Shown: positions 10,012-30,060 of the stretch, piece after piece
Position numbering within the stretch: position 1 is the first letter of the stretch
Layout of the letters: the number at the start of each line of letters is the position of its first letter
IMG/VR virus record: IMGVR_UViG_3300046757_000680
Span: 1 to 35,200 of that record
Strand: one strand, 5' to 3'
Source of the DNA: a virus
Length of the DNA stretch: 35,200 nt
Translations under genes and position numbers: made by a program
The notes under the pieces: generated by a model
Told to the model about the DNA's origin: nothing
Databases searched by the model: none
What the model saw: only the letters and a program-made list of their open reading frames with translations

Positions 10012-11253
10012 CTAGTCTACATTCTTCCAAGTAAATGCTCCAAAGAACATTTCATCTTCTGACATCTGTCCCCAAGGCACACTTCTACTAGGATCAGGAT
10101 TCATAGGATTGTCTGCTGAATTATCAAATGCTCCTTCCACATGAAGTATAGTTCCTTTAGGTATATACTTAGGTTCACGCCAAGTATAACTTAATTGCCA
10201 AGCATAATCATACTTGGGTATGTCAATTAGTTCTTCCCAGGTACCATCCTCGTAGTACGCTGTTGCTTTCATGCTCTTGCCACGGAAGTGCATGTGTGGT
10301 AAGAACGTGTGTAACATGATATCTTGTTTGACAACAATTTCTGCTTCTTGTACAAAGTTAGGATCGTATGGCGGAATATTCGTCCAAGTATTTGGGAATA
10401 TACAAGCACAATCGCCTGCCATTCTTTCTTCTGGTACTACACCTTCGTCATGGAAGTATAAACCAATACGAGCTTTGTCCGTTCTAGCAGTTCCATCTGG
10501 TGTATAGTGCAACTGTAAATTTACAATTGAACCTGCACGTAACAGTCCACCAGTGTTAGCATCGTAGTAGTCTGGTGTGCCGCCTGGAACATAAGCACTG
10601 ATTTGTGCATAGTCCATATTGCCTTGTCCTTCTCCACTTGTACCTAGCAAGTTCATATTGCGTTCACCGGGTATACTAACTGTGTTTAGCATATGATGCA
10701 TAACAGTAGGTTCACTGGGTAAAAATTCTGAACCACGTAACCAACGGTCCTCTGTAAGTCCTAGGTCAACACTAGTATAACGATACGGAATAGCATTTGG
10801 ACCAAGTGTGCCCACAGCAGGTATTTCCTGTGCTGGTACTTCTATTATCATATCAGGTTTGCCATTCACCCATTCACTTGTAGAATATTCTGTAAGAGTG
10901 AGCGGATCAACATCGCCGTCAACAGGTGCGCCTGCATCAATCCACGCTACAATAGTCTCCATTTCTATGTGACTCAGCGTTCTATGATTGATTATGTCCT
11001 CAGCATACTTAGGATTAATTTGTCCTGGAGGCATACGTTTTGTTTCAATAGCTTCTTTAATTGCAGGCGCAAATGCTTGTAACATTCTATAGTCAGTCAT
11101 TGCCCACGGTGCTATACCGTTTTCTCTGTGGCAAGCCTGACATTGCTCTACAAAGATAGGTGCTACATTTTCTGCATAGTCTATAGCAACATCGTCGTGT
11201 GCATACGCAACAGATGTTAATAAACTACTTACTAGCAATATTAATTTTTTCAT
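10012..11253 (-). CDS. Exported cytochrome c / PHM-like copper monooxygenase fusion, 413 aa
   Basis: This appears to be a periplasmic redox protein with two parts. A signal peptide (MKKLILLVSSLLTSVAYA) is followed by a class I cytochrome c domain at about 25-110 with haem motif C38-Q-A-C41-H42 and a likely distal ligand M74 (RMPPG). The rest resembles copper type II ascorbate-dependent monooxygenases (PHM and DBM family). It has H186-H187-M188, H249 in LQLHY, H320-M-H322 in LPHMHFRG, and M402 in SEDEMFFG, the pattern of the CuH and CuM sites. The family hydroxylates C-H bonds using electrons supplied one at a time; a fused cytochrome could supply them. The substrate is unknown. The gene overlaps its paralogue by 29 bases, and AAAGGA precedes the ATG. 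Haem attachment would need the host Ccm system. Confidence 0.75.
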   Translation of the reverse strand: MKKLILLVSSLLTSVAYAHDDVAIDYAENVAPIFVEQCQACHRENGIAPWAMTDYRMLQAFAPAIKEAIETKRMPPGQINPKYAEDIINHRTLSHIEMETIVAWIDAGAPVDGDVDPLTLTEYSTSEWVNGKPDMIIEVPAQEIPAVGTLGPNAIPYRYTSVDLGLTEDRWLRGSEFLPSEPTVMHHMLNTVSIPGERNMNLLGTSGEGQGNMDYAQISAYVPGGTPDYYDANTGGLLRAGSIVNLQLHYTPDGTARTDKARIGLYFHDEGVVPEERMAGDCACIFPNTWTNIPPYDPNFVQEAEIVVKQDIMLHTFLPHMHFRGKSMKATAYYEDGTWEELIDIPKYDYAWQLSYTWREPKYIPKGTILHVEGAFDNSADNPMNPDPSRSVPWGQMSEDEMFFGAFTWKNVD

Positions 11254-12508
11254 TCCTTTCTTCCTTTAGTTTGTTGTATCCTTCATCGTCTAAGTGTGTG
11301 ATAGCAAGCCACGCATGAGTCATTTCATCTCCTGTACGTGAACCTCCCATTACCCACATATCAGGGTCTGGATTGTTTGGGTTATTTTCTGTATTGTCAT
11401 ACCATTGCTTTAGAACAATAACTGCTCCAGCTGGTAAGAGTGGTGCAACGTCCGGGTCATACAAATGACTGTGATGCCATGTTGCACTCCAATTACTTAC
11501 TTGGCTAATCTGTTCTGTGCGTCCTGTCTCTGGATAGAATATTTCTAAACTTGCTGCGTTCATACGCAAGTGTCCATGTGGTTGAAAACTATCTAGTCTA
11601 ACTGGGTGATCAAAACTGTGGAAGCCTTGTGTCATGTAATAACCATGTGGTGGGATAACTATATCGTCCTGATCCCCTAAGCGATATAAACTTAAATCTT
11701 GTTTGTATTTCAGTTGTTCGCTTTCCTCTTCGGTGTATAACCAAAGACCAATCTCTACCACGTTGTCTTTTATAACTGATCCTGGTGCCATTGCTCCAAG
11801 TCCACCTGGAAACATGTGTATGTCCCAACGTACTTGCGAGTTTGCTGGTAGTGTACGACATACTCCTTCTGGAACAATCTCTCCCCACTTTCCCATAGCA
11901 TACTCCGTGAGCATTGCTTGACGTCCTCCGTCTATAACAATATTTGAGTTTGCATGGTGGACTACTGCTTTTGCTTCGCCACGCGGCTTAACTTGTACCG
12001 CTTTAATACAACGGTCTTCAGTTAGACCTGTAGGAACCAAATGTTTGTGCCACAAGTCATTACCATTTGCAGGGATATCTATTGCTACACTTGGAATGAT
12101 TAAATTAGGTTGTCCAAAGTCGCCTTCAAAGTTCCATGCTTCTGGATCAGGAAGGTTAGCTGGTTGTACTACTATATCTTGACTACCATATTGTGCTCCT
12201 GCGTTTACCCACTCAACAACTGTGTCTATTTCATCTTGCGATAACCGCCAGTCACCTTGTAGGTCTTGAATGCCAATACCGTGATCGTATGCATACGGAG
12301 GCATTTCTCTGTTTGCTACACGCATCTGTATTAATGGAGCCCAAGGTCTTACTTGCTCGTATGTTTCAAAGCTCATTGGCCCAATACCACCCGCACGATG
12401 ACATACTACACAGTTATCGTTAATGATAGCTGCTACTTCGTTGGTATATGTTTGTGCTGATAGTACAAGCGGGAATAAAGCCGCTAATGCTGCTGTAATG
12501 TATTTCAT
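11225..12508 (-). CDS. Exported cytochrome c / PHM-like copper monooxygenase fusion, paralogue, 427 aa
   Basis: This is the first gene of the pair. A signal peptide (MKYITAALAALFPLVLSA) precedes a cytochrome c domain with C33-V-V-C36-H37 and probable distal M69 (REMPPY). The C-terminal part keeps most copper-site residues of the PHM family: H184-H185 (the third position is Ala rather than Met), H231 in WDIHMF, H311-G-H313 in FQPHGHLRM, and M396 in TGDEM. Its overall design equals that of the downstream protein, but the sequences are well diverged, so the duplication is old or the two were acquired as a pair. They may form a heteromer or act in sequence. The start lies inside a striking nested hairpin (12490-12553). 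It may be late expressed, since TTAAATAT lies in the leader. The function remains unproven. Confidence 0.75.
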   Translation of the reverse strand: MKYITAALAALFPLVLSAQTYTNEVAAIINDNCVVCHRAGGIGPMSFETYEQVRPWAPLIQMRVANREMPPYAYDHGIGIQDLQGDWRLSQDEIDTVVEWVNAGAQYGSQDIVVQPANLPDPEAWNFEGDFGQPNLIIPSVAIDIPANGNDLWHKHLVPTGLTEDRCIKAVQVKPRGEAKAVVHHANSNIVIDGGRQAMLTEYAMGKWGEIVPEGVCRTLPANSQVRWDIHMFPGGLGAMAPGSVIKDNVVEIGLWLYTEEESEQLKYKQDLSLYRLGDQDDIVIPPHGYYMTQGFHSFDHPVRLDSFQPHGHLRMNAASLEIFYPETGRTEQISQVSNWSATWHHSHLYDPDVAPLLPAGAVIVLKQWYDNTENNPNNPDPDMWVMGGSRTGDEMTHAWLAITHLDDEGYNKLKEERNEKINIASK

Positions 12509-13119: not shown

Positions 13120-13393
13120 TCATACTCTTTAATTGATCAATTGCAGTCTCACAGCGAGTCAGCTTACGCTCTAAAACAGTGATAGCTGCTCGCTGTTTTC
13201 TTGACTGTTCTTCCAAACTATTCACATATGTAAGTGTTGGTACTTCTTGTTGACTGCCATCTTCGCTCATCATGACAAACTTATCAACACCTTGTGCTTT
13301 TAGTCCGCCAGTTACTCTGTTGGGATTTTTATTAGATGATGATTGGGTCTGGGCTGGTTGCTTCCTGCCGTACATGTGATTCAAATAGCTCAT
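13106..13393 (-). CDS. Hypothetical T4-like phage protein with C-terminal coiled coil, 95 aa
   Basis: The chosen start is the ATG at 13393 (MSYLNHMYGRKQPAQTQSSS), because GGAGA precedes it and a perfect TATAAATA late box lies 17 bases further upstream; the frame is open further upstream but lies in uvsE there. The N-terminal half is polar and low-complexity. The C-terminal half (YVNSLEEQSRKQRAAITVLE, then RKLTRCETAIDQLKSMI) is a heptad-like helix, so it probably oligomerises. Such proteins are conserved in cyanophage-type myoviruses without a known role. It overlaps the 3' end of uvsE by 62 bases in another frame. Late expression suggests a virion or assembly role, as inference. Confidence 0.65.
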   Translation of the reverse strand: MSYLNHMYGRKQPAQTQSSSNKNPNRVTGGLKAQGVDKFVMMSEDGSQQEVPTLTYVNSLEEQSRKQRAAITVLERKLTRCETAIDQLKSMIKPS

Positions 13394-14426
13394 TATTGTT
13401 CTCCATATAGTATTTATATAGTGCAATACTTGCAAGATTCTTGCACTTGCTCTCGCACATAATATCTGCATAGTCTAAGAAGCTCAATGCCCAATCGTTA
13501 ACAAGTTGGTTAGGATAGTAGTCACTGTGCGCACGAAGTTTTGCTTTCTTGTAGCCTGCTTCAAGTAGTGCTGGCATATCAGGCATAGTATCGTGTGTAA
13601 AGTCTTGTGGTAACCATTCGTCTCTGCTGTAACTGTAATGTATCACAGGACGCACACCACGCCAGCTGTCAATTACGCGAGCAAATCTATCGTCGGTTGG
13701 TAATATATATTCAGCTTCGCGACACCAGTGGTGGTGTATGTCCAGTACGAGGGCGAGTTCGTCGGCAAGTTCAAGACTTGCGTCGAGTCCCCACTTGTTC
13801 TCGTCGTTCTCGATTGTGATGGTGTTTCTCGCTTCTGGCGATAACCGCTTGAGGGCGGCTTTGATACCGGCTGGACCTTTGCGGCCTGAGATGTGTACGT
13901 TACACTTGAAGTCTTGGAATTGTACGCCGTAGCCCATCCACCTGATGCAATCCACATGATATTCAAACTCCTCTATACTACGTTCTACTATTTCTTCACT
14001 ATCTGAAGCAAGGACTGTAAATTGGCCCGGGTGCATCGAGAGTCGAACATTGAGGGCTCTTGCCGTTTGTCCAACTTCTGCAAACGCTCTTTCCGCATAT
14101 GCCACCACGTCAGGCTTACGCCAAAAATAACTCCAATCAGGCTGGGTATAAACAGGAAGTACATCAGAACCCAATCGTACCATCCGAAGTTCAGGTGGAA
14201 GTGATCCCACATACTCAATCAACCTTTTGTATGACGCAATGTTATGGACCATGATGTCCCACAAGCGTTCTTCAGCAACATCACGTGTCTGCCTGTTAAG
14301 CCACTGTACTGTTGTGCTACGAGTATTTAGCGGGCGTTGTATTTCTTCTAAGATCTTTTTCTTCTGCGTTTGATCTGGATGCATGTATTTGCAAGCAAAA
14401 CCAATACGCTTTTGTGTACTGTTCAT
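13332..14426 (-). CDS. uvsE: UV damage endonuclease (UvsE/UVDE family), 364 aa
   Basis: This is a TIM-barrel, metal-dependent endonuclease that nicks DNA 5' to pyrimidine dimers and other lesions. Family marks seen are the N-terminal KRIGFACKYM, RLSMHPGQFTVLAS, the TIENDE metal-site strand, LDIHHHW, and RAHSDYYPN near the end. I prefer the ATG at 14426 (MNSTQKRIGF) over the one at 14459, because a perfect sigma-70 promoter at 14465-14493 would start RNA at about 14458 and homologues begin close to RIGF. Phage repair of light-damaged DNA suits a surface-ocean virus. The middle of the gene (about 13730-13900) is much richer in G+C than its surroundings, suggesting a different or mosaic origin. 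Confidence 0.88.
   Translation of the reverse strand: MNSTQKRIGFACKYMHPDQTQKKKILEEIQRPLNTRSTTVQWLNRQTRDVAEERLWDIMVHNIASYKRLIEYVGSLPPELRMVRLGSDVLPVYTQPDWSYFWRKPDVVAYAERAFAEVGQTARALNVRLSMHPGQFTVLASDSEEIVERSIEEFEYHVDCIRWMGYGVQFQDFKCNVHISGRKGPAGIKAALKRLSPEARNTITIENDENKWGLDASLELADELALVLDIHHHWCREAEYILPTDDRFARVIDSWRGVRPVIHYSYSRDEWLPQDFTHDTMPDMPALLEAGYKKAKLRAHSDYYPNQLVNDWALSFLDYADIMCESKCKNLASIALYKYYMENNNELFESHVRQEATSPDPIII
13411..13418 (-). promoter_or_regulatory. T4-type late promoter box (TATAAATA)
   Basis: The minus strand reads TATAAATA exactly, the T4 late consensus, inside the 3' part of uvsE and 17 bases before the ATG at 13393. It would drive the coiled-coil gene separately from the early uvsE promoter. 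Confidence 0.65.
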
Positions 14427-14464
14427 ATAGTCACCACATGTTGTAAATTTTAAGTCCATAGTTT

Positions 14465-15630: not shown

Positions 15631-16233
15631 CTATATCTCCTGTTGTTGATTATTTAATATAACTTGTGTAGGCAGTGTGTTAAAACTAATAACTATTCTG
15701 TTATCACTGCTGTTGTTTTCTCTAGTGTGATGCATTAAGTAACTGGGGAATAATATTAATCTACCAGTCACAGTATCTATTACTGCTTCTTTTGCAGTAA
15801 ATGGTGTGTCTAAAGCAGGTATATCTAATATTTTAAAATCGTTTAAAGGATTCTTCAAAACTAAAGGACATGTTTCTGCTTCTGCCGACACATATAATGC
15901 TCCGCTAATAGTACTAACTTTGTGTTGATGTTCTAATACTTTGCCATTAGGCGCCATAATATTAAACCAACTGCTGGTAATACTTAAATCTTGTAATCCG
16001 GTATTTTTTGCATATTCATTTACTGCTAGTGATAGCTGTTGTTTTATACTCAATAGTGCTTCTTGATCTAATAGATAAAGCTCGCCTTTAACAGTATCAT
16101 GACTACTTACGCCAGCAGATACTAATCCATGCTGTCCTGAAATATCTAAGGATTTAAAATATTCTTCATTGATATTTTTAGGTATATTAATACCATAAAT
16201 GCCAACTGGAGTAGGAAATAAGTTATGTATCAT
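15631..16233 (-). CDS. 2OG-Fe(II) oxygenase superfamily protein, 200 aa
   Basis: The protein starts MIHNLFPTPVGIYGINIPKN, a beginning shared with a phage and bacterial oxygenase family (TIGR02466-like, 2OG-FeII_Oxy_5). The double-stranded beta-helix signature follows: WFNIMAPNGKVLEHQHKVST with H102/H104, SGALYVS, LILFPSYLMHHTREN with H168/H169, and R179 in RIVISFN for 2-oxoglutarate binding. The enzyme would hydroxylate a protein, base or small molecule; the substrate is unknown. It abuts queD with no gap, and its end supplies AGGAGA as the queD ribosome site. The sigma-70 promoter immediately upstream leaves only six bases before the ATG, so the message may be leaderless. Confidence 0.75.
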   Translation of the reverse strand: MIHNLFPTPVGIYGINIPKNINEEYFKSLDISGQHGLVSAGVSSHDTVKGELYLLDQEALLSIKQQLSLAVNEYAKNTGLQDLSITSSWFNIMAPNGKVLEHQHKVSTISGALYVSAEAETCPLVLKNPLNDFKILDIPALDTPFTAKEAVIDTVTGRLILFPSYLMHHTRENNSSDNRIVISFNTLPTQVILNNQQQEI

Positions 16234-18040: not shown

Positions 18041-18048
18041 TATTTATC
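18041..18048 (-). promoter_or_regulatory. T4-type late promoter box (GATAAATA)
   Basis: The minus strand reads GATAAATA, overlapping the stop region of the upstream 429-residue gene and 21 bases before the ATG at 18019. The GGAG ribosome site lies in between. Confidence 0.55.
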
Positions 18049-19336
18049 AAGAAACCTTTAGAAGTACTGTATCTAGATTACATCTGCCATTAAGTTTTGT
18101 GTCTGTAGTGTTGATGTCTTCTAAAAACTTACGTAATGCAACTTTGCCTGCACCTTTAAATTCTTTTAATTGTTCATCTGGTTTACGCAGAGTTTTTTGT
18201 ACACTAAGTTTTTCATCAAAGCCAATGATAGTTGTGCCTTTAACGCTTAGACCTGTTCCTTCTCGTCCTAGTCCTTTAGGATCAATACTGCTCGCAATGT
18301 ACCTGCCTAGCTTACGTGTTTTAACATTGAACACCCAAAGTTCGTTTGCACCTACAACGTCAATTGGATTGATACTTGCAAGTTTATATTTTTCATCTAT
18401 CTTAAGGAACTTCAACTTACTAATAACTTTGTCAGCACTACGCGGCTTAGCTTTGCGTGGCTTACGTGTTGCTTTAGCTTGATCAATTATAAAGTCTAGG
18501 GCAACCATTAGTTCGCTAATAGCTGTGCGTAGTTTTTTAATATCAGCTTTCTTAACATGTGCATAACCTTCTTTTAGTTGTTCCCACATGTCAGCGTCAT
18601 GCTCAGACATCTTGGCCAACTGTCCTTTAGTAGGCATACGATCAAGGTCATCATAATCTGCTAGTGTATCTTCATAGAACGACTTTAGTTTACGTGCATG
18701 TGCTTGTGTAACACCTTTTGAACCAAAGTGTCTCTTAAAGTCAAAACCTTTAGGATCAAAACTATTAGGATCTTCTATCCATCCTTCTAACCATATGTCA
18801 ATATCTTCAGACTGTTCAACAGCTTGATCACGTATGCGTTCTTGTATACTTGGTACGTATACATTTACCTTTTCTTTTTCTTCTTCCTCTTTTTCTGCAA
18901 CTTTATCTTTGCCAGCTTCAATATACTTTTCAATTGATTCTTTAAGGAAGTCTATGCTACACTTCAATTCACCCATTGTACCCGGAAGGGATAACCAATG
19001 ATCTGCTTCTGGTTTTGTTAGTCTAGGAGCACCCATCATATCCATACGTGCTACAATAGCGGCTGTAATACTTAATGCAGAATTAGGTGCTGCCTTAACA
19101 GCCTTAACATCTTCTTTAGAGTATTCTTCTTTGGTCATCCATTCAGCTACAAAAGCGTACAATTCTGCTGGCTTAAAATTTTCATAATACCAACTGTGTA
19201 CAAATCTGCGATATGCATGTATTTTAGCACCAGTCATCTTTTCTAGATCATCCCACTTAGGTTCGGCAAGTTTGCCGCCGCGCTTTAGTCTAGGTGCTGC
19301 TCTTGGTGCTTTCTTTTTAGTTTTTGGCATTGCCAT
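18047..19336 (-). CDS. Large hypothetical T4-like phage protein, 429 aa
   Basis: The protein has a basic start (MAMPKTKKKAPRAAPRLKRG), then a helical region (about 25-140) and a charged Lys/Glu linker near 145-160 (DKVAEKEEEEKEKVNVYVPS). A second helical domain follows at about 160-290, then a C-terminal beta-type domain (about 300-429; YKLASINPIDVVGANELWVF, KTRKLGRYIASSIDPKGLG). I know similar proteins only as unnamed or putative virion proteins of T4-like marine phages. Its own sigma-70 promoter (19362-19390) and the motif CATAAATT between promoter and ATG suggest it may be made early and late. The ribosome site is AGGAG. No enzyme motif is visible. Confidence 0.65.
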   Translation of the reverse strand: MAMPKTKKKAPRAAPRLKRGGKLAEPKWDDLEKMTGAKIHAYRRFVHSWYYENFKPAELYAFVAEWMTKEEYSKEDVKAVKAAPNSALSITAAIVARMDMMGAPRLTKPEADHWLSLPGTMGELKCSIDFLKESIEKYIEAGKDKVAEKEEEEKEKVNVYVPSIQERIRDQAVEQSEDIDIWLEGWIEDPNSFDPKGFDFKRHFGSKGVTQAHARKLKSFYEDTLADYDDLDRMPTKGQLAKMSEHDADMWEQLKEGYAHVKKADIKKLRTAISELMVALDFIIDQAKATRKPRKAKPRSADKVISKLKFLKIDEKYKLASINPIDVVGANELWVFNVKTRKLGRYIASSIDPKGLGREGTGLSVKGTTIIGFDEKLSVQKTLRKPDEQLKEFKGAGKVALRKFLEDINTTDTKLNGRCNLDTVLLKVS

Positions 19337-23992: not shown

Positions 23993-24670
23993 TTACCACC
24001 CTTCAAATGATATTCTTTTCCAAATTTTATCTTCACCGTTATAGTTAGCAACGCAATGATAAAAGTAGTTGTCGTCTATACAGACATCTCCTTTTAAATC
24101 TTGTTTGTAACCAATTGGATCGTTTATCGTCCTGTGTTCTATATTTAGCGTAGTTGGAAGATAGGTCTTTTTACTATCGAAGCCTAACATCATTTCATTG
24201 TTGGCAGTAAAGCACAATACTTCTTCAGGAAAATCTTCGTTAGTGCCTACATGAATATTAAAACGATAATCATCATTACTGTCTGTAAATGACAACCATT
24301 TGTTTACTGCCACTTTGTTGCTGCTTAAATAATCACTATTTTTTAGTATGTCTGATTCAATAATTGATGTAGTTATCATTTCTTCAACATGCAGATGTAG
24401 CGATTCAACATTGCCTGTTGTTACACTGCCTGAAAACAACCCGTCTATTGCTTCTATTTTATTATTAACTTTTATATTTTCTGTTGTTAATTTTAAGGCT
24501 GCTTCGTCCCATGTAAGTTCTACACCAGTATGTGTAATTGCTTGACTGTCATCTTTATAAACTGCAAGAGATCCTTTGACTCCTTGATCAATTTGGTTAG
24601 TGCAATTAATATAAGTGTCGCCTTCTAACCGTGTTATTGTTATTGGAGGTACTCCAATCAGCTTATCCAT
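23993..24670 (-). CDS. Fibre-like structural protein, 225 aa
   Basis: The protein starts MDKLIGVPPITITRLEGDTY. The middle is beta-rich and polar (GLFSGSVTTGNVESLHLHVE). The end (DLKGDVCIDDNYFYHCVANY, then WKRISFEGW) resembles the C-terminal tip module of many marine phage fibre proteins, where GDxxxDxNYxYxC precedes WKR. It is likely a short tail fibre or a fibre-associated protein. It overlaps the oxygenase gene upstream by 8 bases, so the two are translated together, which makes the fibre a candidate substrate (inference). Confidence 0.6.
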   Translation of the reverse strand: MDKLIGVPPITITRLEGDTYINCTNQIDQGVKGSLAVYKDDSQAITHTGVELTWDEAALKLTTENIKVNNKIEAIDGLFSGSVTTGNVESLHLHVEEMITTSIIESDILKNSDYLSSNKVAVNKWLSFTDSNDDYRFNIHVGTNEDFPEEVLCFTANNEMMLGFDSKKTYLPTTLNIEHRTINDPIGYKQDLKGDVCIDDNYFYHCVANYNGEDKIWKRISFEGW

Positions 24671-25286
24671 AGTTTACATCCAAATTGTATACGTTACCTG
24701 CTACTGATATTCTACAACCATCTTCAGTAAAAGGATACACTGTATGAAATACATCAGAAGGAAAAATAAACATATCGCCTGTTTTAGGAACCATTTTAAT
24801 TTGTGAGTTATTATTCATAAACTCAATTACGCCACGTACTTGACTATGTTCTGTTTCATACTCGTTTCTAATATTGTCTGGAATATCTACATAAATTATA
24901 TAACTTAATTCAGCAGTGTGTATGTGCATAGGATTAAAATCGTTTGCATACGTGTAGTTTACCCACAGCGGACCTAGCTGTGCTGAAAGTAGTTTTGCAG
25001 ATTCATTAATTGAAGTTTTTCTATAATACTCTTTCATTTTACTTACAAGATAGTCCATTATATATTGACCATCCCACTCATCAAAACTTAATTCGTATTC
25101 ATGCTCCATTGTTGCTACTAGTCTTTTGTGTACATTCTTTTCTTCGCCTAGCAACCTAGATGCCTCTGCTGATTGCTTTAACAATTTTAAAACTTTGTCG
25201 TTAACTGACGTTACTAGTATGCTTGGACCAAATGGATGTATAACTTGATCTTGTACTTGTTCTGTTTTAAGAGGACGCTTCTGCAA
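24663..25286 (-). CDS. 2OG-Fe(II) oxygenase superfamily protein, 207 aa
   Basis: The protein begins MQKRPLKTEQVQDQVIHPFG. The beta-helix core contains NPMHIHTAELSYIIYVDIP with H121 and H123, then KTGDMFIFPSDVFHTVYPF with H181 and R192 (CRISVAG). This is the same pattern as the family to which the 15631-16233 protein belongs, though the two sequences are diverged. The N-terminal ~100 residues are helical and family-specific. The gene overlaps its upstream neighbour by 20 bases and the fibre-like gene by 8. The substrate is unknown. Confidence 0.72.
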   Translation of the reverse strand: MQKRPLKTEQVQDQVIHPFGPSILVTSVNDKVLKLLKQSAEASRLLGEEKNVHKRLVATMEHEYELSFDEWDGQYIMDYLVSKMKEYYRKTSINESAKLLSAQLGPLWVNYTYANDFNPMHIHTAELSYIIYVDIPDNIRNEYETEHSQVRGVIEFMNNNSQIKMVPKTGDMFIFPSDVFHTVYPFTEDGCRISVAGNVYNLDVNYG

Positions 25287-27197: not shown

Positions 27198-27205
27198 TAT
27201 TTATG
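27198..27205 (-). promoter_or_regulatory. Possible late-type box (CATAAATA) at the iscU stop
   Basis: The minus strand reads CATAAATA across the iscU stop codon. It is only seven bases from the zinc-ribbon ATG, so a transcript from it would be nearly leaderless; it may be chance. Confidence 0.25.
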
Positions 27206-27584
27206 ACTTCGACTTGTCTTTGTAATCTTTTACGGCAGCTTTGATTGCGTCTTCAGCTAGTACTGAGCAATGTATTTTTACTGGAGGCAAAGCGAGTTCG
27301 TTTGCAAGTTCTGTATTTTTGATCTTAGTTGCATCCTCCAAGGACATCCCTTTAACCCACTCTGTGAGCAGACTAGAACTAGCAATAGCACTCCCGCACC
27401 CGTATGTTTTAAACTTTGCATCTTCAATAATACCATCGTCGTTTACTTTGATTTGTAGTCGCATAACATCGCCACATGCTGGAGCACCTACCATGCCTGT
27501 ACCTACACCGTCCGTGTCTGGATCCCACTTGCCTACATTTCTTGGGTTTTCATAATGATCAATTACTTTATCAGAATAAGCCAT
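27201..27584 (-). CDS. iscU: IscU Fe-S cluster scaffold protein, 127 aa
   Basis: IscU builds 2Fe-2S and 4Fe-4S clusters with sulfur from IscS and passes them on with HscA/HscB. All key residues are present at the same numbering as E. coli IscU: C37 and D39 (GAPACGDVM), C63 (YGCGSAIASSS), H105 and C106 (KIHCSVLAEDAI), and the HscA-binding LPPVK at 99-103. The length is full. The start MAYSDKVIDHYENPRNVGKW is the family start. It is coupled to the 49-residue gene upstream by TAATG and precedes a zinc-ribbon gene. Because scaffold and chaperone sites are intact, it could plug into the host ISC machine. The similarity is host-like, suggesting capture from a proteobacterium. Confidence 0.96.
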   Translation of the reverse strand: MAYSDKVIDHYENPRNVGKWDPDTDGVGTGMVGAPACGDVMRLQIKVNDDGIIEDAKFKTYGCGSAIASSSLLTEWVKGMSLEDATKIKNTELANELALPPVKIHCSVLAEDAIKAAVKDYKDKSKS

Positions 27585-27783: not shown

Positions 27784-27791
27784 TATTTATC
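27784..27791 (-). promoter_or_regulatory. T4-type late promoter box (GATAAATA)
   Basis: The minus strand reads GATAAATA across the end of the DUF2970-like gene and about 50 bases before the ATG at 27733. It would express the basic peptide, iscU and the zinc ribbon late. Confidence 0.5.
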
Positions 27792-27969
27792 TTAGCACTA
27801 TTTGATCAACAAACAAAAAGAGTGTTAACATAAAGATTACTGTAGTCACAAGTCCTGCTGTTATAAAAATTACAAGATTTCCTGATTCAAAATCTCTGTC
27901 ACGATTTGCACTACTTTGTACACCAAGCATTGCTGCTAATACACTTTTTATTGTTTGCCAAATATTCAT
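27787..27969 (-). CDS. DUF2970 family membrane protein, 60 aa
   Basis: The protein reads MNIWQTIKSVLAAMLGVQSS, then NRDRDFESGN, then a single hydrophobic helix (LVIFITAGLVTTVIFMLTLF). The amphipathic start with LAAxxGVQSxxNRxRDF followed by one TM segment is the DUF2970 pattern known from proteobacterial chromosomes, where the function is unknown. Its ATG overlaps the protease stop (ATGA). A host-derived membrane peptide in a phage suggests acquisition from a Gram-negative host. Confidence 0.7.
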   Translation of the reverse strand: MNIWQTIKSVLAAMLGVQSSANRDRDFESGNLVIFITAGLVTTVIFMLTLFLFVDQIVLR

Positions 27970-30017
27970 TGTAAAATTGTCTCTCCATTGATGCCAGCAA
28001 CGTTGTAGCGAACACGATTAATTGCATACGCTTCGTCGAATCCTGATTGTCCTTTTTTGCGATGCCCTGCCGGCTGGTTGCCGCCTGAGCCATTAGGTGT
28101 TATTTGTTCACAAGTAAGTAAACTGTTGCTAAACAGTGTGCGGGATGAGTTGTAGGCCATTATAGAACCGTGTCCAGGACACACACCAGTAAACCCGTGT
28201 CCAAAGTCTGGGAAGACATATCCTGTGCCTTGGTTATAAGCATTGTCTGGTCCATGTGCTAGACCAACTGTGTGTCCTAGTTCATGAAGCAGATCTTTCC
28301 AGCCACAAATACCCCAAGGATGCAGAGGTTTACGGAAACTAGCATCAAAGCCAGCCCAACCGCATATTATACCGTTGCTTGTATTTTGCGGATATCCTCC
28401 TACTTGTAGGAATGCATCAGGAAGGTATTCTTCTTTAACAAATTTTGTGTCAATAAATCCTGTAAAGTAAGCGTATCTAATATCAACTAAGTCTAAGTTA
28501 ACATGTACTCCTGATCTTTGCAATAACTCATTCATAGCTTCAATAGTAGTCAAATCACGTTTATACTGCGGTGATTGTTTATCGGCAACATCGCAAATTG
28601 CAGGTTGTCTAGTATCATTAACTATCTTAGCACATTTAATATCAAACACAACTAACACTACTTCCCAATTAACTACGGTAGTATCATCGTCACCAAAGAA
28701 AATATAACCATCTTCTGGATAAGTGTTTTTTACATTATTATCCATACAGTCTGTCATTCCTGTTTGTAATGTTCCTGTTCTAGGGCAATCCGCTACTTTA
28801 GCAACAGATGGCTGTTCAATTGATTCAGCTGTGTCGCCACCGTGCATATGCTCGTTGTGTATTAATGAAAAAGAAAACCTTACACGATTAAGTGCATACG
28901 CTTCGTCACTTTGATACAGACTACCTGCGGCATCGCCCCATGCACCTGGAGGATATTCAAACTCTTCACATGAACTAAGTTCGTTAGTGTACATTGATCC
29001 AGTTGAATAACTCATTACACTTCCTTGAACTCCGCACACACCCTCACCCGCTTTGCCTGACCAGCCATGACCAAAACGTGGGAAGATAGAGCCCATACTG
29101 TATCTTTGTTCTTGAGGTGTGGCAGTCTCTAGTGTCCAGTCTGGAATGCCCCATATTCCGTGTCCAAGACCCATTGCATGTCCTACTTCGTGCTGTAGCG
29201 TCTTACCTAAGTTGAGTCCTACTGGTCTAGGTGCTCGCATTCCAGGATACACAGACCTTGCCATTAGCGCCTGTCCTCCTACAGCGCCTGACCCGCCCCA
29301 TCCATACACAATATCAGAAATTTCATTGAGGACTATGTTCCCTCCAAAACTGAATAAGTCATACCAAGTATCAGCAAAGTATACATCTGTAATTTTATAT
29401 TCAATATAAATCTTATTGCGAGCTAGTTTGTTGTTCCACTCTGTAACATTCTTTTCTATCTGCAATCTTACTTCGTGATCGTCTGGTACTCTATCACCGT
29501 CCTCAAACTCAGGATACATTGTGTTAGACCGTACAAAGCCTATTTCAATAGTTACTACTTCGTCCGTATCATACCATATCATGCCTGCAGACATACCTCC
29601 TGTTAGGTATCCAAAACAATCTACTTTGTATGCGGAACTAGGTTGAAGTTCGTGTTCACATTTATTATCTTCTACGATGTCAAAGTAATATTCTTTGTTA
29701 TCAACTATAAGTGTTCCACGTCCTAGTCTACCATCAGAACGAATATTAAGTCCAGTGTCTGTTAGTTTAACTCTACCTCTGTCTACTTTATAGGTGCCGT
29801 CCCACGGTCCTGTAATAGTAACTTCAACATCACTAAAGTAAGCACCAGTACCGTTTACAGTAACTTCTACTTCTTCAGGTGGAGGTGGGGGTGGGGGTGG
29901 AGGTGGGGATGTTGTTGTTGTTATAGGTGCAGTTGTATTTGCAGTATCAAATGTTCCAGTATTAGGACTGTCACATGCAACTAAGAATAATACAATACTA
30001 ATTAATAGATATTTCAT
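27966..30017 (-). CDS. Lipoprotein with two tandem metzincin-type zinc protease domains, 683 aa
   Basis: A lipoprotein signal (MKYLLISIVLFLVAC) with lipobox LVAC gives an acylated C15. A Thr-rich and then ten-proline linker (about 26-49) and a beta domain (50-140) follow. Domain 1 has HEVGHAMGLGH (H276, E277, H280, H286) and Met-turn M335 (SVMSYS). Domain 2 has HELGHTVGLAH (H578, E579, H582, H588) and M620 (SIMAYN). Both also share a FPxFGHG segment, a Cys-containing GS-M-Y stretch and a DEAYALNRVR/DEAYAINRVR end, so the second is an internal duplicate. Both keep the HExxHxxGxxH zinc site. It may be attached to host membranes or to the virion and cut surface peptides; I cannot assign a target. 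Confidence 0.8.
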   Translation of the reverse strand: MKYLLISIVLFLVACDSPNTGTFDTANTTAPITTTTSPPPPPPPPPPEEVEVTVNGTGAYFSDVEVTITGPWDGTYKVDRGRVKLTDTGLNIRSDGRLGRGTLIVDNKEYYFDIVEDNKCEHELQPSSAYKVDCFGYLTGGMSAGMIWYDTDEVVTIEIGFVRSNTMYPEFEDGDRVPDDHEVRLQIEKNVTEWNNKLARNKIYIEYKITDVYFADTWYDLFSFGGNIVLNEISDIVYGWGGSGAVGGQALMARSVYPGMRAPRPVGLNLGKTLQHEVGHAMGLGHGIWGIPDWTLETATPQEQRYSMGSIFPRFGHGWSGKAGEGVCGVQGSVMSYSTGSMYTNELSSCEEFEYPPGAWGDAAGSLYQSDEAYALNRVRFSFSLIHNEHMHGGDTAESIEQPSVAKVADCPRTGTLQTGMTDCMDNNVKNTYPEDGYIFFGDDDTTVVNWEVVLVVFDIKCAKIVNDTRQPAICDVADKQSPQYKRDLTTIEAMNELLQRSGVHVNLDLVDIRYAYFTGFIDTKFVKEEYLPDAFLQVGGYPQNTSNGIICGWAGFDASFRKPLHPWGICGWKDLLHELGHTVGLAHGPDNAYNQGTGYVFPDFGHGFTGVCPGHGSIMAYNSSRTLFSNSLLTCEQITPNGSGGNQPAGHRKKGQSGFDEAYAINRVRYNVAGINGETILQ

Positions 30018-30038: not shown

Positions 30039-30060
30039 TAAATGCTGACATCAGCATTTA
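30039..30060 (-). promoter_or_regulatory. Perfect 10-bp inverted repeat upstream of the protease gene
   Basis: TAAATGCTGA and TCAGCATTTA flank a two-base centre, a perfect 22-base palindrome. It lies between the 56-residue gene (ends 30070) and the protease start (30017), 12 bases before its AAGGA site. As RNA it could form a hairpin; as DNA it could be an operator. Confidence 0.5.

Follow-up and report, generated by a model that had tools for sequence, protein, structure and literature searches.

A phage lipoprotein with two predicted metzincin protease domains and a candidate role in the host envelope

Why should a phage encode an apparently membrane-anchored protein with two protease sites? 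The question is raised by a gene at 27966-30017 on the minus strand of the 35,200-nucleotide stretch of DNA analysed here (the window), which is part of IMG/VR virus record IMGVR_UViG_3300046757_000680. Its reading frame, which encodes 683 aa, is uninterrupted, and the layout given below was taken from the ORF, from Pfam and from motif positions; every feature lies on the minus strand. By inspection, the N-terminus reads MKYLLISIVLFLVAC-DS, a signal peptide (residues 1-15, 29973-30017) that closes with the Cys of the lipobox LVAC, at residue 15, and has Asp at the +2 position. A Thr/Pro linker follows (residues 16-47, 29877-29972), in which exactly ten consecutive prolines begin at residue 38. 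The lipobox and ten-proline linker that a sequence-only reading had reported are therefore both present, and the protein is apparently a lipoprotein, predicted to be lipidated and anchored in a membrane. In E. coli, a lipoprotein with Asp directly after the lipidated Cys stays on the periplasmic face of the inner membrane, and the window protein may be held there as well if its host follows that rule. By the E. coli rule, the Asp speaks against the cell-surface role suggested in the same reading. Just upstream of the start codon, at 30040-30059, is a perfect 9-bp inverted repeat, AAATGCTGA CA TCAGCATTT, possibly a terminator or an operator.

Beyond the linker, the AF2 model of the N-terminal half and alignments delimit a beta-rich domain (about residues 48-140, 29598-29876), and Pfam, the AF2 models and Foldseek delimit two metzincin domains (about residues 141-390, 28848-29597, and about residues 430-683, 27969-28730). 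The beta-rich domain precedes the first protease and has no counterpart before the second; it is also found in single-domain relatives. Each half carries the HExxHxxGxxH zinc site of the metzincin clan, HEVGHAMGLGH at residues 276-286 (29160-29192) and HELGHTVGLAH at residues 578-588 (28254-28286), and each zinc site is followed by a Met-turn, SVMSY at residues 333-337 (29007-29021) and SIMAY at residues 618-622 (28152-28166). FGHG also occurs once per half downstream of the zinc site (residues 315 and 605), as does DEAYAxNRVR, in which DEAYA begins at residues 371 and 661. Both active sites are therefore intact and the motifs follow a common order, as had been claimed, in halves that are well diverged: they share 28% identity (88 of 309 positions), with E values of 2e-21 by blastp and 6.6e-17 by phmmer. 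Because of that identity and the blastp value, we do not regard their homology as a product of chance. Three Pfam models shared with adamalysins, ADAM proteins and bacterial reprolysin-like proteins score above their gathering cut-offs (Reprolysin_5, 32.4 against 27; Reprolysin_3, 27.8 against 22.4; Reprolysin_4, 22.7 against 22).

Predicted structures agree with this assignment. AF2 models of each half, built from family alignments, reached pTM values of 0.78 for the C-half and 0.73 for the N-half; mean pLDDT was moderate at 70-73, and low around the zinc and active-site loops of the C-half. With both models, each of moderate confidence, Foldseek matches at E <= 0.001 were metzincins exclusively. 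PDB entry 6o38 was the top match for both halves (E about 2e-7); ADAM proteins and adamalysins of snake venom ranked next. In BFVD no structure matched at E <= 0.001. As modelled, both halves adopt the metzincin alpha+beta fold, and we predict that both domains are zinc endopeptidases of the adamalysin/CpaA type.

Entry 6o38 is CpaA, a T2SS-secreted glycoprotease of Acinetobacter that is assigned to MEROPS family M72 (PMC7542363) and is also the best PDB profile match (E 3e-4). CpaA and the window protein have in common the zinc site, the Met-turn, export and beta domains before the protease. They differ in that CpaA, at about 15% identity, combines a single protease domain with four Ig-like repeats, comes with a chaperone, CpaB, and is neither phage-encoded nor a lipoprotein; the NCBIfam CpaA model scores 19.7 bits against a cut-off of 750. 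Beside the window protease lies a gene for a single-TM DUF2970 protein (27787-27969, minus strand; Pfam PF11174, E 3.7e-20). The start codon of that gene runs into the stop codon of the protease (ATGA), so its translation is probably coupled to that of the protease. The DUF2970 protein is a possible partner; its 60 aa are too few for a counterpart of the membrane chaperone CpaB. DUF2970 proteins are common in bacteria.

The double metzincin belongs to a family that occurs on at least 100 IMG/VR contigs (33, 29 and 102 in three overlapping alignment-based scans). The first single-domain homologue, L028, was reached through relatives of a neighboring phage gene, and alignments then gave the family; no relative came from scanning viral contigs directly with a single sequence, be it P0001 or the C-half. 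The sequence-only reading had made no mention of the beta-rich domain or of stand-alone relatives in other phages. Zinc site and Met-turn are kept, by profile, in 72 of 73 distinct family sequences, the exception being a truncated fragment of 116 aa, and the median NG86 dN/dS over 71 close pairs of relatives is 0.17; by this computation the relatives are under purifying selection. An export signal is visible by inspection in nearly all full-length members, and a lipobox-like motif in eight, the window protein included. Relatives carry one to three Cys-containing N-terminal repeats of about 43 aa each. The window protein alone, among 66 distinct members, has two protease domains.

We describe the family as exported metzincins from tailed phages that are marine and uncultured, "marine" following from related contigs and gene content, not from a sample record. 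Metzincins as a protease type, and phage-borne metzincins, were already known; what is new is the occurrence of such a family in uncultured marine phages, the coupling of its gene to that of endolysin in one group, and the fusion of two domains, and the literature searched held no description of such a phage family. Tblastn with four members against 50,697 phage records found no match, and a PHROGs search matched phrog_18894 alone, whose function is not annotated. Of 398 Pseudomonadota genomes searched by profile, just 4 gave a match below 1e-8, so that the family appears to be remote from bacterial relatives in the genomes sampled. Among the matches listed for another genome scan was a Hahella contig (L088) with secreted reprolysin-like proteins, which share HE.GH..GL.H, GHG, the Met-turn and a C-terminal NxVR with the family; their similarity is remote (E about 2e-15 by profile).

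The two domains had been described as duplicated. The halves are indeed homologous, but the N-half groups as sister (support 100/99; 46-48% identity) with a separately encoded metzincin lipoprotein of another phage contig (L061:1058-2494), which has the same lipobox-plus-linker layout as the N-half and a single protease domain. A simple, recent tandem duplication within the gene was rejected, the topology with the two halves as exclusive sisters having a p-AU of 0.001. Contig L061 carries two separate metzincin genes, the second lying upstream of the first. A clade of both halves with L061b (p 0.37), a clade of both halves with both L061 metzincins (p 0.29; 0.287) and the pairing of the C-half with L061a (p 0.236) were not rejected; branches are long, and placement of the C-half is unsure. 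Given the sister relationship of the N-half, the rejection of the exclusive pair and the two separate genes of L061, the window gene is best read, from these sequences, as a fusion of two paralogues, by then already diverged. The halves may also stem from a duplication that predates the split from L061. Between the two L061 genes, at 723-1103 on the plus strand, is a small lipoprotein of 126 aa with an HEIIH motif, which weakly matches phrog_27783, again of unannotated function.

What the protease might do is suggested chiefly by the gene order of its relatives. In L043, L044, L048/L155 and L164 the metzincin gene comes straight after an endolysin gene, its start sharing one base with the end of the latter. 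Contig L044 also encodes, upstream of the metzincin, an Rz-like spanin lipoprotein (phrog_812, 9e-12), and in L041, L099 and L166 a lipoprotein gene comes next after it on the opposite strand, the one in L041 with a weak spanin match (phrog_1804, E 0.003). The window protease has no adjoining lysis gene: its neighbors are DUF2970 and, about 400 bases downstream, a NifU/IscU-like scaffold gene (27201-27584, minus strand). The same kind of gene precedes the endolysin and metzincin in L044 and L164. Since a lysozyme profile matched 2 of 33 family contigs and the phrog_812 spanin profile 3 of 26, adjacency to endolysin or spanin is not general; a lysozyme fragment in L043 was missed by the profile and is visible in the gene list. 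In contigs that we take to be T4-like the metzincin sits before ribonucleotide reductase or by nuclease genes, and in those that we take to be T7-like it mostly follows ribonucleotide reductase. The link to lysis is thus real in one phage group and not general, and as the contigs of that group are related, it perhaps reflects one evolutionary event.

The sequence-only reading had offered alteration of the envelope, blocking of other phages and release of peptides as roles, and the gene order of the relatives points to lysis more than to the latter two. Because of the endolysin adjacency with its one-base overlap in one group and the spanin-like lipoprotein in L044, we favor accessory lysis, tentatively and at a little under even chances: an exported, envelope-acting double endopeptidase that would cleave host envelope proteins and help lysis. 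Made by the phage and exported through Sec during infection, the protein would be lipid-anchored in the host envelope on its flexible Pro-rich tether, facing the periplasm or the exterior, and would there cut host envelope proteins, so that the weakened envelope would fail more readily once endolysin and spanin act. Fusion of two diverged domains could give a broader substrate range or two coupled cuts.

By analogy, a precedent may be seen in Listeria, where a secreted, phage-associated metzincin, its gene following holin-lysin in prophages, enhances phage-mediated lysis and the release of virions, and where the Mtz-Tim pair indicates that such a protease can raise sensitivity to holin-lysin (PMC8235301). 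The likeness is that of a secreted metzincin of phage origin; the Listeria protein has a Gram-positive host, a single domain and a TIMP-like lipoprotein partner (PMC8235301), and no Tim- or TIMP-like gene was identified beside the window metzincin.

The main rival to accessory lysis is receptor removal, so regarded because CpaA, the nearest structural relative, removes CD55 and other O-glycoproteins from the surface of cells (PMC7542363). An anchored protease that trimmed outer-membrane or glycosylated surface proteins would stop further phage adsorption and keep progeny off debris. The family's export, the frequent lipoprotein character and Pro-rich tether of its members, and the many members that are not beside lysis genes all suit such shedding. 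We nevertheless consider it unlikely, given the endolysin adjacency in one group and the Asp at +2, which by the E. coli rule predicts that the protein would stay in the inner membrane, away from the surface. To our knowledge, moreover, the lipoproteins that act in exclusion are small binders, not enzymes.

The ribonucleotide reductase genes that adjoin many family members speak for another alternative, in which an auxiliary protease digests extracellular or periplasmic proteins for phage synthesis or loosens the matrix around the cell. The best NCBIfam match, Mep72, is a biofilm-associated metzincin (PMC4334185), at a score far below its cut-off (29.3 bits against 645), and the window has other exported or metabolic genes; a lipid anchor and the late-lysis gene order of one group fit such a role less well, and no peptide-uptake genes were noticed near the window protease. 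We judge this nutritional or environmental role improbable. More improbable still is that the protease processes exported or virion proteins of the phage, or rides in the virion as an entry enzyme. In favor of this reading, the window encodes other exported proteins, two of them cytochrome-like and one a glycine-zipper protein, but the export signal would carry the protease away from the cytoplasm, the site of virion assembly, and the Cys-rich repeats of the relatives occur in no other ORF of the phage loci examined.

To return to accessory lysis, accounts of how phages lyse Gram-negative cells usually stop at holin, endolysin and spanin. A protease family of marine phages that is exported, conserved in its catalytic site and in places directly coupled to the endolysin gene suggests that envelope proteins may also be cut during infection. 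That the family at large provides an extra lysis step beside endolysin and spanin, with the window fusion as an envelope protease bearing two active sites on one lipid tether, is a doubtful extension of the idea; the family does offer candidates for envelope remodeling by phage-made enzymes, and the window protein is the two-active-site fusion among them.

The remainder of the window bears out the phage origin that had been supposed for the gene. Besides belonging to a virus record, it encodes a protein like T4 gp9/10 (its match just below the cut-off), a phage DNA ligase, tRNA genes and a ClpP whose best matches are in PA5oct-like Pseudomonas phages. Another contig, of 83 kb (L002, IMGVR_UViG_3300048066_000291), encodes a protein 100% identical to that of window 18047-19336 and probably represents the same virus; the contig seems to stop short of the protease gene. 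At 10012-12508, minus strand, neighboring genes encode a pair of paralogues that are exported, bear CxxCH haem motifs and weakly match cytochrome c, one of them also with a weak match to a Cu2_monoox_C domain. The first of the two had no match in phage records, and such a pair of exported haem-motif proteins is unusual in a phage. Also on the minus strand are a UvdE-type UV endonuclease gene (13332-14459) and two 2OG-Fe(II) oxygenase-family genes (15631-16233 and 24663-25286).
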